Shown in pieces: positions 5,336-22,659 of a stretch of DNA of 38,384 nucleotides (position 1 is its first letter; each line of letters opens with the position of its first letter). This stretch comes from Thermoleophilaceae bacterium (lineage in GTDB: Bacteria > Actinomycetota > Thermoleophilia > Solirubrobacterales > Thermoleophilaceae): NCBI GenBank assembly GCA_036378175.1, contig DASUWY010000029.1, positions 1 through 38,384 of the forward strand, read 5' to 3'. Both the position numbers and the translations under genes were made by a program. The notes under the pieces were generated by a model. The model was not told the origin of the DNA and did not search any database. It saw only the letters and a program-made list of their open reading frames with translations.

Positions 5336-6564
5336 TGGCGGACCGGACGGTCGACTACCTGCTGATCGGCGGGGGACTGGCCGCCGGAAACTGCGCTCAG
5401 GTGCTGCGCGACGGAGGCGCGGACGGCTCGATCCTCCTGGTGGGACGCGAGCCGGACCTGCCGTACCACCGGCCGCCGCTTTCGAAGGGCTTCCTGCAGG
5501 GCAAGGAGTCCCGCGAGGACACGCTTGTGAACCCGGCCGACTGGTGGCAGGAGAACAACGTCGAGGTGCTCACCCGCACCAGCGTGCTCAAGCTCGATCC
5601 GGGGGAGCGCATGGCGCAGCTATCCACGCGCGAGGAGGTGTCGTTCGACAAGGCGCTGATCGCCACGGGCGCCAACGTGAAGCGCTTGAGCGTGGACGGC
5701 TGTGACCTCGACGGGATCCATTATCTGCGCACGCTCGGCAACAGCGCCTCGATCCGGGAGGACGCGGAGCAGGCGGAGCATGTGGTGCTGATCGGTGGCA
5801 GCTACATCGCCACCGAGGTGGCGGCTTCGCTCACCCTGCTCGGGAAGAAGTGCTCGCTGGTGATGATGGAGGACGTCACGCTCGAGCGTTTCTACGGGCA
5901 GGAGGTCGGGCGCTTCTTCCAGGGGATCCTCGAGGATCATGGGATCGAGGTGAACGGGGCCGACGAGCTCGCTCGTTTCGAGGGGTCCGATGGACGCGTG
6001 ACGAAGGTGGTCACGAAGTCGGGGAAGGAGCTGCCGGCCGAGTGCGTGGTAATCGGAGCGGGCGTGAGCCCGGACGTGACACTGGCGAAGGCGGCGGGAC
6101 TCGAGATCGGCGATGCGGGTGGGGTGAAGTGCTCCGCGACGCTCGAGAGCTCCGCGCCGGGGATCTGGGCCGCGGGCGACATGTGCGAGTACGACAGCAT
6201 CATCCACGGCTCGCACATGCGCATCGAGCATTGGGACGTGGCCTTCAACCACGGCCAGACCGCCGCGGTGAACATGCTCGGACGCTCCACCCCGCACGAC
6301 GTCGTGCCCTACTTCTTCTCGGACCTCGCCGACTGGGTGAGCTACGAGTACGTCGGGCCCGGCTCGGGGGAGACCGTCATGCGCGGGTCGCTCGACGACG
6401 CCGACTTCACCGTCTTCTACCTCGGGGAGGACGGCACGGTGAAGGCGGCGCTCACCGTGGGACGCTCGGAGGACCTGGAGCACGCCCGCCGCTTCATCAA
6501 GGAGAAGATCGTGCCGGAGCGCCAGCAGCTGGCTGACGAGGCGACGGATCTGTCTGAGGTCTAG
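5335..6564 (+). CDS. FAD-dependent NAD(P)H oxidoreductase, ferredoxin-reductase type
   Basis: 409 residues, in the class of rhodocoxin/putidaredoxin reductases. FAD-binding motif LLIGGGLAAGNCA near residues 7-19, the YHRPPLSKGFL segment typical of this family, NAD(P)-binding motif VVLIGGSYIATEVAAS near residue 145, and the second FAD motif GIWAAGDMCEY near residue 279. It has no disulfide CxxC, so it is not a thioredoxin or dihydrolipoyl reductase. It would pass electrons from NAD(P)H to a ferredoxin or another acceptor; the partner is not in the window. The ATG overlaps the stop of trkA, so it is co-transcribed with the TrkA pair, though no functional link is obvious. Confidence 0.85.
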   Translation: MADRTVDYLLIGGGLAAGNCAQVLRDGGADGSILLVGREPDLPYHRPPLSKGFLQGKESREDTLVNPADWWQENNVEVLTRTSVLKLDPGERMAQLSTREEVSFDKALIATGANVKRLSVDGCDLDGIHYLRTLGNSASIREDAEQAEHVVLIGGSYIATEVAASLTLLGKKCSLVMMEDVTLERFYGQEVGRFFQGILEDHGIEVNGADELARFEGSDGRVTKVVTKSGKELPAECVVIGAGVSPDVTLAKAAGLEIGDAGGVKCSATLESSAPGIWAAGDMCEYDSIIHGSHMRIEHWDVAFNHGQTAAVNMLGRSTPHDVVPYFFSDLADWVSYEYVGPGSGETVMRGSLDDADFTVFYLGEDGTVKAALTVGRSEDLEHARRFIKEKIVPERQQLADEATDLSEV

Positions 6565-16793: not shown

Positions 16794-18038
16794 GTGGCCG
16801 GCGGCAAACTCCAGGCCCCGCGGGGCACATTCGACGTGCTGCCCGAGGAAGGCAGGCGGCGCGCCGCGCTGCGCGCGATCTGTGAGGAGCTGATCGAGCC
16901 CGCCGGCTACGGCCCGGTGGACACTCCGATCTTTGAGGCCACCGAGCTCTTCGCGCGCGGGGTGGGGGAGACCACGGACATCGTGCAGAAGGAGATGTTC
17001 ACCTTTGAGGACCAGGGCGGCCGCTCGCTCACGCTGCGCCCGGAGGGAACCGCGGGCGCGTGCCGCGCGTACCTCGAGCACGGGATGCACAAGCAGCCGC
17101 AGCCCGTGAAGCTCTGGTACTGGGGGCAGTTCTTCCGCCACGAGGCGCCCCAGGCGGGCCGCTACCGGCAGTTCAACCAGGTGGGCGTGGAGGCGATCGG
17201 CTCCGACGACCCGTCGCTCGACGCCGAGGCGATCCTGCTGCTGTCGCAGATCCTGGAGCGCGCGGGGGCGAAGGGCGTGCGGCTGCGGCTCGGCAGCCTC
17301 GGCACGCCCGAGACGCGCCGCGCCTACTCGGACGAGCTCCGCGAGTACCTGCGCAGCCACGAATCCGAGCTCTCCGACGAGGTGCGCGACCGGCTCGACG
17401 CGAACCCGCTTCGGGCGTTCGATTCGGACCACCCGGGCACGAGGGCCGTGGTGAAGGACGCTCCCAAGCTGCTCGACCGCCTGAACGAGGACGACGCCGC
17501 GCACTTCGCGGAGGTGCGCGCGCTGCTCGACGAGGCAGGGCGCGACTACGAGATCGACGCGGCGCTGGTGCGCGGCCTCGACTACTACACGCGCACCGTG
17601 TTCGAGTTCACGAGCGACGCCCTCGGCGCTCAGAGCGGAGTGGGCGGGGGCGGCCGCTATGACGGCCTCATGGAGCAGCTCGGCGGTCCTCACACGCCGG
17701 GAGTCGGCTGGGCGGCCGGGATCGAGCGCATCCTGATGGTGTCGGAGCTGGGCGCCCCCAAGGTCGCGGCCGACGTGTACGTGGTGCGCGATGGAGCCGG
17801 CACGGCGACCGAGTTCAAGACTCTCGCCGCGCTCCGGGACGCCGGCTTCACCGCCCAGATGGAACAGGCCGGCCGTTCGGTGAAGGGGCAGTTCAAGCAG
17901 GCGGACCGGCTTGGCGTTCGAGCCGTGCTGATCGTGGGTGCAGACGGGCTTTCGGTGCGGGACATGCAGTCCGGCGACCAGCGCGACATGCCGGACCTGG
18001 CCGGGGCGCTGCAGGCGCTCAAGGAGGTGCTTGCGTGA
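16794..18038 (+). CDS. hisS: Histidyl-tRNA synthetase
   Basis: 414 residues, the usual size. Class II motif 2 in FRHEAPQAGRYRQFNQ, histidine-specific motifs RGLDYYTRTVFEF and GGGGRYDGL, motif 3 GVGWAAGIERILM, and a C-terminal anticodon-binding domain (about residues 325-414). Charges tRNA-His with histidine in the cytosol. The GTG at 16794, one base after the preceding stop, gives the family-typical start GGKLQAPRGTFDVLPEE. The gene ends with the ribosome-binding site of aspS. Confidence 0.96.
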   Translation: MAGGKLQAPRGTFDVLPEEGRRRAALRAICEELIEPAGYGPVDTPIFEATELFARGVGETTDIVQKEMFTFEDQGGRSLTLRPEGTAGACRAYLEHGMHKQPQPVKLWYWGQFFRHEAPQAGRYRQFNQVGVEAIGSDDPSLDAEAILLLSQILERAGAKGVRLRLGSLGTPETRRAYSDELREYLRSHESELSDEVRDRLDANPLRAFDSDHPGTRAVVKDAPKLLDRLNEDDAAHFAEVRALLDEAGRDYEIDAALVRGLDYYTRTVFEFTSDALGAQSGVGGGGRYDGLMEQLGGPHTPGVGWAAGIERILMVSELGAPKVAADVYVVRDGAGTATEFKTLAALRDAGFTAQMEQAGRSVKGQFKQADRLGVRAVLIVGADGLSVRDMQSGDQRDMPDLAGALQALKEVLA

Positions 18039-19789
18039 AGCCACCGCGCCCGAATCTCTACCGAGACACCTGGGCGGGCGACGTTCGCGCAGACCACGTG
18101 GACCAGGAGATCCGCGTGGCGGGCTGGGTCCACCGCCGCCGCGACCACGGCGGGCTGATCTTCATCGACCTTCGCGACCGCACCGGGATCCTCCAGCTCG
18201 TGTTCCGCCCGGAGGAGGCGCCGCAGGCCCACGCCGCGGCGCACTCGCTGCGCTCGGAGGACGTGCTCACCGCGCGCGGCCGGGTGGTGCGCCGCGAGGA
18301 GGGAACCGTCAACCCGCAGCTGCCCACCGGCGAGGTGGAGCTTGCCGTGGACGAGATCGAGCAGCTGGCGGACGCCGAGACGCCTCCGTTCGAGGTGGAC
18401 AGCGACAAGCAGGTGGACGAGCTGCTGCGGCTCCGCTACCGCTACCTGGATCTGCGTCGCGAGCCGATGCAGGAATCGATCGAGCTGCGACACCAGGTTG
18501 TCGCCGCGATCCGCGACTACCTGAACGAGCGCGGCTTCCTCGACATCGAGACGCCGTTCCTCACCCGCTCGACGCCGGAGGGCGCGCGCGACTTCCTCGT
18601 GCCGAGCCGCATCGATCCCGGCTCGTTCTACGCGCTGCCGCAGTCCCCTCAGCTGTTCAAGCAGCTCCTGATGGTCGCCGGCTTCGAGCGCTACTACCAG
18701 ATCGTCCGCTGCTTCCGCGACGAGTCCTCGCGCGCTGACCGGCTGCCCGAGTTCACGCAGCTCGACATGGAGATGTCGTTCGTGGAGGAGGAGGACGTGA
18801 TCGGCCTCTGCGAGGGCCTGATCCAGGCGTTTCTCGCGGCGGGCGGCGTGGAGGTGAGCGTGCCGTTCGACCGCGTGAGCTACGCGGAGGCGATGCTGCG
18901 CTATGGCACCGACCGCCCGGACCGCCGCATCGGCATGGAGATCCAGGATCTCGGCGAGGCGTTTGCGCATTCGGAGTTCCAGGTCTTCCGCGGCGCGCTC
19001 GAGTCGGGTGGCGTGGTGCGCGGGCTGAAGGCGCCGGGCGGCGACCTCACCCGCAAGCGCTTCGACGAGCTCACCGAGCAGGCGAAACAGCTCGGCGCGA
19101 AGGGGCTCGTCTGGGCCGTGGTGGAGGCAGAAGGCTGGCGCTCGCCGATCGCCAAGTTCCTCAAGCCCGAGGAGATCAGCGCTGTGGCGTCACAACTGGA
19201 CGCCGCCGAGGACGACGCGATCCTGATCGTGGCCGACACGGCGGACATCGCGGCGCGCGTGCTCGGCCAGCTGCGGCTCGAGCTCGCGCCGGCGGCCGAG
19301 GGTCACGACCTCCTGTGGATCGTCGACTTCCCGATGTTCGAGTGGAACGAGGACGAGAAGCGCTGGGACGCGTTGCATCACCCGTTCACCAGTCCGAAGG
19401 GTGAGCTCACCAGCGATCCTGGCGGCTGGTCGAGCCGCGCCTACGACGTCGTCTGGAACGGCTGGGAGATCGGCGGCGGCTCGATCCGTATCAACCGCCC
19501 CGACGTGCAGCGCAAGGTCTTCGAAGCCCTCGGCATAGGCGAACAGGACGCCCAGGAGCGCTTCGGCTTCCTCCTCGACGCCCTCAAGTACGGAGCCCCG
19601 CCCCACGGCGGAATCGCGTTCGGAATCGAACGCATTGTGGCCATGCTGAGAGGAAGCGACTCGATCAGAGAAGTGGTCGCCTTCCCAAAGGCAGCGTCGC
19701 AGGCAGACCCGCTCACAGGAGCACCAGCACCCGTGGACCAAGAGCAACTGGACGAGCTAGCACTGAAGGTAACGCGACCTCGGGATTAG
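18035..19789 (+). CDS. aspS: Aspartyl-tRNA synthetase, probably non-discriminating
   Basis: 584 residues: OB-fold anticodon domain, class II core with FRDESSRADRLPEFTQLDMEMSF (motif 2 region), the bacterial insertion domain and motif 3 GIAFGIERIVAML. Residue H38 (in RRRDHGG) and G90 (in REEGTVN) match the His/Gly pair that marks non-discriminating AspRS such as that of Pseudomonas aeruginosa. It would then charge both tRNA-Asp and tRNA-Asn, with GatCAB amidating the latter. The GTG at 18035 overlaps the hisS stop and has AAGGAGG seven bases upstream. The last 40 codons use unusually many A-ending codons compared with the rest. Confidence 0.95.
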   Translation: MKPPRPNLYRDTWAGDVRADHVDQEIRVAGWVHRRRDHGGLIFIDLRDRTGILQLVFRPEEAPQAHAAAHSLRSEDVLTARGRVVRREEGTVNPQLPTGEVELAVDEIEQLADAETPPFEVDSDKQVDELLRLRYRYLDLRREPMQESIELRHQVVAAIRDYLNERGFLDIETPFLTRSTPEGARDFLVPSRIDPGSFYALPQSPQLFKQLLMVAGFERYYQIVRCFRDESSRADRLPEFTQLDMEMSFVEEEDVIGLCEGLIQAFLAAGGVEVSVPFDRVSYAEAMLRYGTDRPDRRIGMEIQDLGEAFAHSEFQVFRGALESGGVVRGLKAPGGDLTRKRFDELTEQAKQLGAKGLVWAVVEAEGWRSPIAKFLKPEEISAVASQLDAAEDDAILIVADTADIAARVLGQLRLELAPAAEGHDLLWIVDFPMFEWNEDEKRWDALHHPFTSPKGELTSDPGGWSSRAYDVVWNGWEIGGGSIRINRPDVQRKVFEALGIGEQDAQERFGFLLDALKYGAPPHGGIAFGIERIVAMLRGSDSIREVVAFPKAASQADPLTGAPAPVDQEQLDELALKVTRPRD

Positions 19790-19866: not shown

Positions 19867-19873
19867 TGCACGC

Positions 19874-20036
19874 GGCCCGAGCTTGTTCGTGAGCCGTCTC
19901 AATGTTTGAGCCAACACCATGGGAGCCGGGAGTCCGGCTCGGGGTTGGGCCGTGGCCCGCCCCGGAGGACACCCAATCTTGCTGAGCAAGGTTCAACTCC
20001 CGAGGCGGCAGCGGCAAGCTGGGGCCATTTTTCTTT
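19874..20036 (+). ncRNA. ssrS: Structured non-coding RNA, candidate 6S RNA
   Basis: Closing stem GGCCCGAGCTTG (19874-19885) with CAAGCTGGGGCC (20015-20026), 11 of 12 pairs. Then an internal loop and a second stem GCCGTCTC (19893-19900) with GAGGCGGC (20002-20009), then a large open region. Its 3' side can form a small hairpin (CTTG/CAAG, 19978-19990), and its apex holds strong hairpins (GAGCCGG/CCGGCTC at 19923-19940; GGGG..GGGC/GCCC..CCCC at 19941-19963). The T-run ATTTTTCTTTCT follows the closing stem. A long rod with a central bubble and about 155 nt is the form of 6S RNA, which binds sigma-A RNA polymerase. In Bacillus the 6S-1 gene bsrA lies in the same aspS-mnmA neighbourhood. Identity is inferred; a different structured RNA cannot be excluded. 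Confidence 0.6.
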
Positions 20037-20070: not shown

Positions 20071-21531
20071 ATGGGCGACATCGCGCAGCTCGCGGACCAT
20101 CTCTCGGCGCCGCGAGGCCAGGGACGGCTGGAGGGCTGGGCGCACTTCGGGGTGGCCGGCGGCGCGGCGTGCGGCGACCTCGTGCGGATCGCGGTGCGCG
20201 TGGAGGGGGACCGGATCGCGGAGAGCGGCTTCACGGCGAGCGGCTGCGCTGCCGCACGGGCGGCCGCCAGCGCGGTGGTCGAGCTCACCGAGGGCACCCT
20301 CTTCCTCGACGCCGCGCGGCTCACCGGCGACAACATCTCGGAGGAGCTCGGCGGGCTGACGCCGCTCGGCCGGCACGCGGCGGACCTCGCGGCCGAGGCG
20401 CTTCACCGCGCCCTGGGCGCCGCCGCCCGTGACGGCGCGCCCCGCCTCCCGCAGGACGAAAGGCGCACGCTTGTGGCCATGAGCGGCGGCGTGGACAGCG
20501 CGGTGGCGGCGGCTCTCGCGCTCGAGGCCGGTCACGAGGTTGTGGCCGTGACGCTCGAGCTGTGGGCGCATCCGGAGAACGACGGCGAGCGCAGCTGCTG
20601 CTCTCCGCAGGCGGTGATCGGCGCGCGCGCCCTCGCGCACCGAATGGGTCTTCCTCACGTGACTCTCGACCTCCGCGATGCGTTCAAGCACGAGGTGGTG
20701 GAGAACTTCGTGGAAGAGCACGACGGCGGCCGAACGCCCAATCCGTGCGTGCGCTGCAACGGTCTCGTGCGCTTCGACCGCATGCTCGCTCTCGCCGGCG
20801 CGCTGGGGGCCGCGCGGCTCGCCACGGGGCACTACGCGCGCGTCGAGCGCGACGGAAGCGGGCCGCTGCTTCGGCCCGCCGCCGATCCGCGCAAGGACCA
20901 GACGTACATGCTCGCGCGCCTCGAGCCGCACGAGCTCGAGCGCCTGTGGTTCCCGCTCGGCGAGCTGGAGAAGCCCGCGGTGCGCGAGATCGCGCGGCAG
21001 CAGGACCTGCCGGTGGCCGAGAAGCCCGAGAGCCAGGACCTCTGCTTCCTCGCGGGGATCGATCGCCGGCGGCTTCTCCGTCCGGGCAGGCCCGGCGACA
21101 TCGTCGACCGGCGCGGTCGCGTCCTCGGCCGGCACTCCGGCCAGGAGGGATTCACGGTCGGCCAGCGTCGCGGTATCGGCGTGGCGGCGCCCGAACCTCT
21201 GTACGTCCTCCACAAGGACGCCACCAGCGGCCGCGTGACGGTGGGCCCGCGCGAGGCGCTCGCCACCACTCGCGTGCCGGTGACCGGGGCCCGGCTGCTG
21301 CGCCCCGGCGCGGCTGTGAACCGCGTGAAGCTCCGCTACCGCGCGGCGCCGATCGCGTGCCGCGTGCTGGGAGATCGCGGGGCCGGTGAGCACGAGAGGA
21401 TCGACGTCCTGCTGGAGTCGCCGGTGGACGGCGCCGCGCCCGGTCAGACTGCATGTCTAATGTGCGATGACTCCATCGTGGGATGGGGAACGATCGCCGA
21501 ACCCGACCTGGAGGCAGCGAATGCCGCATGA
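20071..21531 (+). CDS. mnmA: tRNA 2-thiouridine synthase MnmA with fused NifU/IscU-like N-terminal domain
   Basis: 486 residues. Residues 1 to about 118 resemble an Fe-S scaffold: A-C34-G-D and S-G-C59-A match the first two cluster cysteines, while the third (expected after His in RHAADLAAEAL) is Ala103. From residue 131 a full MnmA follows: PP-loop SGGVDS (138-143), a CC pair at 176-177, N-P-C226-V-R-C229-N and S-Q-D-L-C325-F with the catalytic cysteines, and the C-terminal beta-barrel with GFTVGQRRGIG. It thiolates U34 of tRNA-Lys, -Glu and -Gln. The ATG at 20071 has no clear Shine-Dalgarno. The 3' end overlaps the next gene by 11 bases. The fusion suggests direct cluster or sulfur supply to MnmA. 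Confidence 0.88.
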   Translation: MGDIAQLADHLSAPRGQGRLEGWAHFGVAGGAACGDLVRIAVRVEGDRIAESGFTASGCAAARAAASAVVELTEGTLFLDAARLTGDNISEELGGLTPLGRHAADLAAEALHRALGAAARDGAPRLPQDERRTLVAMSGGVDSAVAAALALEAGHEVVAVTLELWAHPENDGERSCCSPQAVIGARALAHRMGLPHVTLDLRDAFKHEVVENFVEEHDGGRTPNPCVRCNGLVRFDRMLALAGALGAARLATGHYARVERDGSGPLLRPAADPRKDQTYMLARLEPHELERLWFPLGELEKPAVREIARQQDLPVAEKPESQDLCFLAGIDRRRLLRPGRPGDIVDRRGRVLGRHSGQEGFTVGQRRGIGVAAPEPLYVLHKDATSGRVTVGPREALATTRVPVTGARLLRPGAAVNRVKLRYRAAPIACRVLGDRGAGEHERIDVLLESPVDGAAPGQTACLMCDDSIVGWGTIAEPDLEAANAA

Positions 21532-21913
21532 CACGATCGAGCTGACCACCCCCATCGGGCGTGACTGGGATCCCGTGGTGCGGCTCGTGCTCGGGGGCAT
21601 CGCGGACAGGCTCAACCTCGGCTTCGAGGAGCTCGACGATCTTCAGCTCGCCGTCGAGCGCCTGCTGCTCGAGGCGGGCTCGCAGGACTCGGTCACCCTC
21701 GCGTTCGAGATTTCCGAGAACGGCGTGCGCACGCGCATCGGCCCGCTGCGTGCGGGGGCGCTCGCGGAGGCGCTACAGGGGCCGCCCCCTCCACCGGGCG
21801 AGCTCACGCTGCGGCGCATCCTCGAGACGGTGGTCGACTCGTTCGGAGTCGAGCAGGTGGCCGACGACGGCCGGCTGATCGTCCGCCTCGAGAAGGTGGT
21901 CCGGGGAGCTTGA
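21521..21913 (+). CDS. RsbW-like anti-sigma factor / HATPase-like protein
   Basis: 130 residues. Opens MPHDTIELTTPIGRDWDPVVRLVLGG and contains LDDLQLAVERLLLEA, which lines up with the N-box helix of RsbW/SpoIIAB kinases, but the usual Asn (as in E..TNA) is absent, and no clear G1/G2 ATP-lid motifs follow. It may bind the sigma factor without kinase activity. The ATG has GGAGG six bases upstream, inside the end of mnmA. The next gene is a SigB/SigF-type sigma factor, the partner expected for such a protein. A homologous pair order is common in actinomycetes; the regulatory role is inferred from this. Confidence 0.68.
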   Translation: MPHDTIELTTPIGRDWDPVVRLVLGGIADRLNLGFEELDDLQLAVERLLLEAGSQDSVTLAFEISENGVRTRIGPLRAGALAEALQGPPPPPGELTLRRILETVVDSFGVEQVADDGRLIVRLEKVVRGA

Positions 21914-21915
21914 CG

Positions 21916-22659
21916 GTGACGTCGCTTCCAAGCTCGCAAACGGACGACCGCGAGCTGCTGCGCCGCTATCACGAGGACGGAGACCGCAGCGCCCGCGAGC
22001 TTCTCGTGCAGCGCCACCTGCCGCTCGTGCGCGCGCTGGCGCGCCGCTACGCCGGCCGGGGCGAGGCGCTCGAGGACATCGAGCAGGTGGGCGCGATCGG
22101 CCTGCTCAAGGCGATCGACCGCTACGAGCTTTCCCGCGAGGTCGCTCTCACCACCTACGCCACTCCCAACGTGGTGGGCGAGATCAAGCGCCACTTCCGC
22201 GACAAGGGCTGGGCGATCCGCATCCCGCGCGGGCTCCAGGAGCTGAACTCGAAGATGTCCGCCACGATCGAGCGGCTCACCGCGAAGCTCGGCCACTCGC
22301 CGAGCATCGCCGAGATCGCCCAGGAGCTGCAGACCACGCCGGAGCAGGTGCTCGAGGCGATGGAGGCGGGCTCGGCATACGCGCCGGTGTCGCTGTCGGC
22401 GGGCCCCACCGCCGAGGGCGAGCTCGATCCGATGGAGACGATCGGCTCAGAAGACCTGAACTTCGAGCGCTCCGAGCAGCGCGCCTCGCTCGAGCCGGCG
22501 CTCGAGATGCTGCCAGAGCGCGAGCGCGAGATCCTGCGTATGCGCTTCGAGGACGGGCTCACGCAGACGCAGATAGCGGAGCAGGTGGGCGTGTCTCAGA
22601 TGCACGTTTCGCGGCTGATTCGCAAGTCTCTTGCCCGCATGAGGGCGGAACTCTCTTAA
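21916..22659 (+). CDS. RNA polymerase sigma factor, SigB/SigF/SigG type
   Basis: 247 residues from the GTG at 21916, which has GGGGAG seven bases upstream (a TTG at 21910 overlapping the previous stop is the alternative). Region 2 (EDIEQVGAIGLLKAIDRY, with TTYATPNVVGEIKRHFRDKGW), region 3 (LNSKMSATIERLTAKLGHSPSIAEIAQEL) and region 4 (LPEREREILRMRFEDGLTQTQIAEQVGVSQMHVSRL) are all present; region 1.1 is absent. This is a group 3 sigma-70 factor for a stress or developmental regulon, probably held in check by the upstream RsbW-like protein. Confidence 0.92.
   Translation: MTSLPSSQTDDRELLRRYHEDGDRSARELLVQRHLPLVRALARRYAGRGEALEDIEQVGAIGLLKAIDRYELSREVALTTYATPNVVGEIKRHFRDKGWAIRIPRGLQELNSKMSATIERLTAKLGHSPSIAEIAQELQTTPEQVLEAMEAGSAYAPVSLSAGPTAEGELDPMETIGSEDLNFERSEQRASLEPALEMLPEREREILRMRFEDGLTQTQIAEQVGVSQMHVSRLIRKSLARMRAELS

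Follow-up and report, generated by a model that had tools for sequence, protein, structure and literature searches.

A NifU-like domain without its third cluster cysteine fused to C-type MnmA, a possible sulfur relay or docking domain of the tRNA thiolase

Free human ISCU2 binds Fe2+ through C69, D71, C95 and H137, and its C138 accepts the persulfide, with only background persulfidation left in C138S (PMC11021402). SufU of Mycobacterium tuberculosis accepts the persulfide on C40 of a C40-G41-D42 motif. Its zinc is held by C31, D42, C67 and His354 of SufS; the metal swaps C40 for that histidine, and C40 then accepts the SufS sulfur (PMC10216065). An IscU fold can thus transfer sulfur with non-canonical ligands and with its first cysteine as the acceptor. 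On the side of the tRNA thiolases, C-type MnmAs carry a CC-CxxC-C set of cysteines, and the T. thermophilus member holds a [4Fe-4S] cluster according to PMC8584467 and to Shigi et al. 2020 as cited in PMC11784392 and PMC8584467. A NifU domain is not reported for the described enzymes of this type (PMC11784392, PMC8584467). Plasmodium falciparum MnmA has a putative SufE-like domain at its N-terminus, for which a role in passing on sulfur from SufS has been proposed (PMC10219651). In Clostridium perfringens, desulfurase, scaffold and MnmA are encoded by neighbouring, co-induced genes, iscR-iscS-iscU(nifU)-trmU (PMC2940859).

Here we describe a single gene that joins a NifU/IscU-like domain to a C-type MnmA. 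With the T. thermophilus type it shares the CC-CxxC-C cysteines, the PP-loop and the three MnmA domains, but it has the NifU domain in addition. The fold and residues C34, D36, C59 and H102 are common to A. fulgidus IscU (4EB5) and clostridial-type NifU; it differs from these scaffolds in the covalent link to MnmA and in the Ala, Gly or Val that proteins of its type have for the third cysteine. The fold is also that of B. subtilis and M. tuberculosis SufU, in which the cysteine of CGD takes up the persulfide, and the ability of the mycobacterial protein to work with a non-canonical fourth ligand (C31) resembles the altered site of the fusion. The SufU of the same genome has Lys-Cys where the fusion has His102-Ala103 and is not joined to MnmA. 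The arrangement is like that of P. falciparum MnmA, with an N-terminal domain of the sulfur-acceptor type (SufE/SufU fold) and SufS as desulfurase, although the Plasmodium domain is SufE-like rather than NifU and belongs to another lineage and to the apicoplast; the two fusions appear to be of independent origin. Unlike in C. perfringens, scaffold and thiolase are no longer separate genes. Text searches of a partial literature collection did not find a paper on a NifU-MnmA fusion. Each domain is known by itself. The literature searched did not contain the two joined together with a site remodelled throughout a lineage, although such proteins are surely present in sequence databases without having drawn comment.

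The fusion gene and its start

Within the window (the whole stretch of DNA analysed, 38,384 nucleotides), the gene lies downstream of aspS and a 6S RNA (Table 1). The NifU_N profile (PF01592) matches aa 7-116 with an E value of 4.5e-21 (75.7 bits, cut-off 22), and the MnmA profile NF001138 matches aa 133-475 with 332.4 bits (cut-off 284). TIGR00420 is also passed, at 272.5 bits against 236.95. The cut-offs of the clostridial-type NifU profile TIGR03419 (73.9 vs 187.9 bits) and the SufU profile TIGR01994 (37.3 vs 92.5 bits) are missed. The protein has both features of a C-type MnmA, the SGGxDS PP-loop and the CC-CxxC-C cysteines. On the NifU/IscU side the fold, the Asp and the His are present and the set of three cluster cysteines is incomplete because of A103; the SufU-type acceptor cysteine in CGD (C34-G35-D36) and the second cysteine (C59) are there. 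A preliminary description of this DNA had given the same frame, coordinates and residues (C34, C59, H102, A103, C226/C229 and C325), all of which are correct; D36 and the C176-C177 pair can be added to them. The genome contains no second full-length match to the fusion protein. Since all 88 aligned fused proteins match both NifU_N and tRNA_Me_trans, the fusion is not due to chance.

Table 1. Features at the fusion locus (positions in the window; aa, residues of the fusion protein)
Feature	Position	Strand	Remarks
aspS	18035..19789	+	conserved upstream neighbour; hisS further upstream
6S RNA (RF00013)	19872..20029	+	between aspS and fusion; 48.3 bits, gathering 46.4
NifU-MnmA fusion gene	20071..21531	+	486 aa; ATG at 20071; stop codon counted in
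NifU_N/IscU-like domain	20089..20418	+	aa 7-116; Pfam NifU_N and AF2 match to 4eb5_C
C34-G35-D36, first scaffold Cys and Asp	20170..20178	+	C34 = ISCU2 C69, SufU C40/C41
C59, second scaffold Cys	20245..20247	+	equivalent to ISCU2 C95
H102-A103	20374..20379	+	His kept (ISCU2 H137); Ala for third Cys (ISCU2 C138)
MnmA part	20458..21495	+	aa 130-475; three domains (HUP, PRC-barrel, C-terminal barrel)
PP-loop SGGVDS	20482..20499	+	aa 138-143 (S138-S143)
C176-C177, CC motif of C-type MnmA	20596..20601	+	lacking in one fused MnmA
C226-x-x-C229, CxxC motif of C-type MnmA	20746..20757	+	DxxC in E. coli
C325, last Cys of CC-CxxC-C motif	21043..21045	+	kept in all fused MnmAs
Small overlapping gene before sigma factor gene	21521..21913		no Pfam match; looks like an anti-sigma factor
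Sigma-70 family factor	21910..22659		regions 2-4; downstream of fusion

An AlphaFold2 model built with 88 fused sequences (pLDDT 95.5, pTM 0.93) predicts a long helix, residues 98-120, that leads into the MnmA part. It superposes on the MnmA structures 2hma and 2det with Z-scores of 39.0 and 37.8 (345-347 residues aligned, rmsd 2.3) and on A. fulgidus IscU 4eb5_C with a Z-score of 20.8 (131 aligned, rmsd 2.1). The latter is also the best sequence match in the PDB.

The preliminary description had allowed that the true start might lie downstream of the NifU region. The 6S RNA upstream, an aligned N-terminus and codon constraint exclude this. The 6S RNA was found by a local Rfam scan, having been missed by a scan of the whole window at the gathering threshold, and occurs at the equivalent place in relatives of families f2, f5 and f6. 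Because it overlies the upstream extension of the frame, that extension is non-coding; the stretch upstream of 20071 is far more conserved against the closest relative than the gene is, and it lacks a codon pattern. The first residues of the fusion align with those of an 84%-identical relative, against which the 116 codons of the NifU part have 15, 10 and 39 mismatches at codon positions 1, 2 and 3, a pattern of codon-position constraint.

Loss of the third cysteine and history of the locus

NifU-domain and whole-protein searches covered 299 genomes of the class (Thermoleophilia, judging from a Thermoleophilaceae MAG that is the closest relative with a name) and 396 of the phylum, and the loci were then fetched. 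Readable fused NifU-MnmA proteins were found in 99 genomes in these searches within one phylum, and in all 99 the C-D-C-H-C site is incomplete. The site is complete in all 24 canonical NifU proteins, whether stand-alone or encoded by a gene just 5' of an unfused mnmA (f6, f29, f51, f67). The type to which this gene belongs, C-D-C-H-A/G with one V and here called A-type, comprises 82 sequences from families f1-f5 and f23. C34, D36, C59 and H102 are invariant (100%) among them, against a mean top-residue frequency of 0.56 for the NifU domain. The alignment of fused homologues at A103, which the preliminary description had proposed, gives Ala (65), Gly (15) or Val (1) throughout the 81 sequences that have a residue there, the remaining one having a gap. 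A single variant among relatives with a normal scaffold had been the other doubt raised, and it can be dismissed, as the normal third cysteine occurs in no close relative. Neither random decay in one scaffold nor an error in start choice or assembly has any appreciable probability left, in view of the 99 genomes, the codon constraint and the synteny.

Other fused families have altered the site differently. The third cysteine is mostly kept and the His lost in f8, f55 and f73, and likewise in f10. C34 is the sole ligand left in f9, the f16 site is mixed, and one f34 protein has lost its site including C34. The f9 loci with first-Cys-only NifU domains (L106, L110-L112, L131, L132, L142) lie in genomes that encode NifS; the f9 genomes G018 and G072 contain a stand-alone NifU whose site is complete. 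The f5 locus L072 probably reflects a frameshift. The nifU and mnmA genes of one genus in f6 occupy different, overlapping frames (5883-6314 and 4864-6222 in L056; 5926-6357 and 4907-6301 in L057). Immediately before SGGVDS, no ATG, GTG or TTG start was found in the frame of mnmA; in these two loci the start may lie further upstream, or frameshifting may produce a fusion.

We considered whether the covalent fusion caused the cysteine loss. This is weakened by some f23 genomes in which nifU(CDCHA) and mnmA are separate, overlapping by a few bases, with the third cysteine absent from that NifU as well. The loss therefore tracks service to MnmA, not covalent fusion.

The gene order hisS-aspS-(6S RNA)-nifU-mnmA-(sigma factor) recurs across the class, whole or in part. 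A sigma factor gene is found downstream of mnmA in f6, f8, f9 and f23 as well. At the equivalent place, f6 has the separate genes aspS-6S-nifS-nifU-mnmA; f29 has nifS-nifU-mnmA, and in f23 nifS lies directly 5' of the fused nifU-mnmA. NifS/IscS was not found in 29 of 30 f1-f4 genomes (TIGR03402, E below 1e-60). Because separate nifS-nifU-mnmA genes occur in f6 and f29 and nifS lies beside the fusion in f23, the likely history is one of neighbouring nifS-nifU-mnmA genes that underwent fusion, with nifS subsequently lost in f1-f4. SufS is present in those sampled f1-f4 genomes that were checked. In G000 the main and clear cysteine desulfurase is SufS, adjoining SufU, and none of the other Aminotran_5 proteins tested in G000, G103 and G093 is an IscS. 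TusA is the first carrier of the E. coli sulfur relay. It was not found in 13 of 17 f1-f4 genomes searched and is present in the genome of this fusion. Fused proteins occupy two parts of the MnmA tree: some group with the class and f23, others with f55, f16, f73 and f34. This implies two or more fusions, or else several splits, a single fusion being neither supported nor excluded; the NifU tree is built on too few columns to settle the number.

A possible sulfur relay and the alternatives

Aligned with ISCU2, residues C34, D36, C59, H102 and A103 correspond to C69, D71, C95, H137 and C138, so that the fusion retains the four iron-binding positions but not the persulfide acceptor. The fused domain probably hands sulfur to MnmA rather than building Fe-S clusters. 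In the explanation we favour, which taken as a whole has a chance just short of even, the NifU domain came from an adjacent nifU gene and is an Fe-S scaffold no longer. That the scaffold became a SufU-like relay which supplies MnmA with sulfur in cis is a tentative reading of nearly even chance, drawn from the residue roles in ISCU2 and SufU and from the spacing of the SufS histidine: in all five SufS proteins inspected (G000 and relatives), a His precedes the catalytic Cys by 19 residues, as His354 precedes Cys373. Also in its favour are the invariant C34, D36, C59 and H102 beside a changed position 103, the lack of NifS/IscS in 29 of 30 f1-f4 genomes, the nifS genes next to nifU-mnmA in f23, f29 and f6, the lack of TusA in 13 of 17 genomes and the parallel in Plasmodium MnmA. 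The domain would dock a cysteine desulfurase, SufS in the lineage of this gene and the adjacent NifS in f23. Zn or Fe(II) would be held by C34, D36, C59 and H102, and a SufU-like ligand swap would let C34 take the persulfide. This could then pass in cis to C226/C229/C325 of the MnmA active site, which probably carries [4Fe-4S], for thiolation of U34. Loss of the C103 equivalent would remove the ISCU2-type persulfide acceptor and a cluster ligand, sending sulfur to tRNA and not to a nascent cluster. The specific proposal of a dedicated sulfurtransferase, whose Cys2-Asp-His site takes SufS sulfur and feeds a [4Fe-4S] MnmA in cis, is plausible and somewhat less probable than the broader one. Put most generally, we infer a sulfur relay or docking domain of MnmA.

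Several observations run counter to the relay. In f9, f16, f34 and f7 the sites are eroded further while MnmA is intact, and the relay therefore cannot be needed everywhere; a docking role may be all that remains in these families. In NFS1-bound ISCU2, C69, the equivalent of C34, is dispensable for persulfidation (PMC11021402). Direct transfer from a desulfurase to MnmA is described for B. subtilis YrvO, as cited in PMC10219651. The domain could accordingly be a docking adaptor that binds the desulfurase (or tRNA) and stabilises the enzyme, with sulfur passing directly from desulfurase to MnmA and the metal site a structural leftover kept for folding in some lineages. Family f7 speaks for this reading. 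Its MnmAs (L186-L215) carry an N-terminal block of about 79 residues without the metal site, 27 of 32 blocks having no cysteine at all, and the remnant was matched in 58 of 61 genomes, over 30 genera. The block is about as conserved as MnmA (mean top-residue frequency 0.776 vs 0.795), and hhalign relates it to NifU with a probability of 94.9 (E 4e-8). In the f7 model, predicted with confidence (pTM 0.91), it consists of three strands and a helix; IscU is absent among the listed PDB matches, a list filled by the MnmA part. The f34 protein, also without the site, fits as well. The absolute conservation of C34, D36, C59 and H102 in 82 diverse sequences, in a domain otherwise far more variable, points instead to metal or thiol chemistry in proteins of this type, and on balance we hold a purely adaptor role to be unlikely, if the strongest of the alternatives.

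The sulfur relay must also be weighed against delivery of iron. The preliminary description had suggested that Fe-S cluster or sulfur delivery is built into the thiolase, with a cysteine of the MnmA part completing the site. The fusion proves real, old and widespread, and sulfur delivery is its best reading; completion by an MnmA cysteine is not supported, because the presence of the MnmA cysteines does not depend on whether the NifU part has lost its third cysteine. The CC-CxxC-C set occurs phylum-wide, including MnmAs that have no fused NifU domain, and all five cysteines are present in every fused MnmA but one, which is without the CC pair. They are kept in f7, which has lost all NifU ligands, and in f9, which has lost all but C34. 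Besides, the retained C34-D36-C59-H102 already offers four possible metal ligands. The phylum-wide occurrence likewise led us to reject the fusion as the cause of the C-type set. A domain that holds Fe(II) or, with a partner cysteine completing the site, [2Fe-2S] and loads the [4Fe-4S] cluster of MnmA would agree with the kept residues, the Fe2+ binders of free ISCU2 (PMC11021402), and with a C-type MnmA part, whose T. thermophilus relative has such a cluster (PMC8584467). Yet C-type MnmA exists phylum-wide without the fusion, all A-type proteins are without the third ligand of the cluster, and f7, f9 and f34 retain all MnmA cysteines with most or all NifU ligands gone, which makes iron or cluster donation improbable. 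Still less credible is a regulatory role, in which the metal or oxidation state of Cys2-Asp-His gates MnmA and couples tRNA thiolation to iron, zinc or redox. A conserved metal-type site whose scaffold role is not obvious would suit it, but genes in the order nifS-nifU-mnmA speak for a role in supplying sulfur.

If the sulfur relay holds, a fused IscU-fold donor would be to bacteria what the SufE-like domain of MnmA is to Plasmodium. The sulfur route to C-type [4Fe-4S] MnmA and the part played by its cluster are called unclear in reviews (PMC11784392, PMC8584467); the fusion found in nature points to a candidate for the donor domain, and donor and acceptor become testable in one protein. A clade that has lost the acceptor cysteine throughout, yet retains all four residues for Fe(II) binding, is a natural experiment on the division of IscU residues between clusters and sulfur transfer, and the series from separate genes through a fused partial site to a site-less remnant portrays a scaffold losing its job stepwise.
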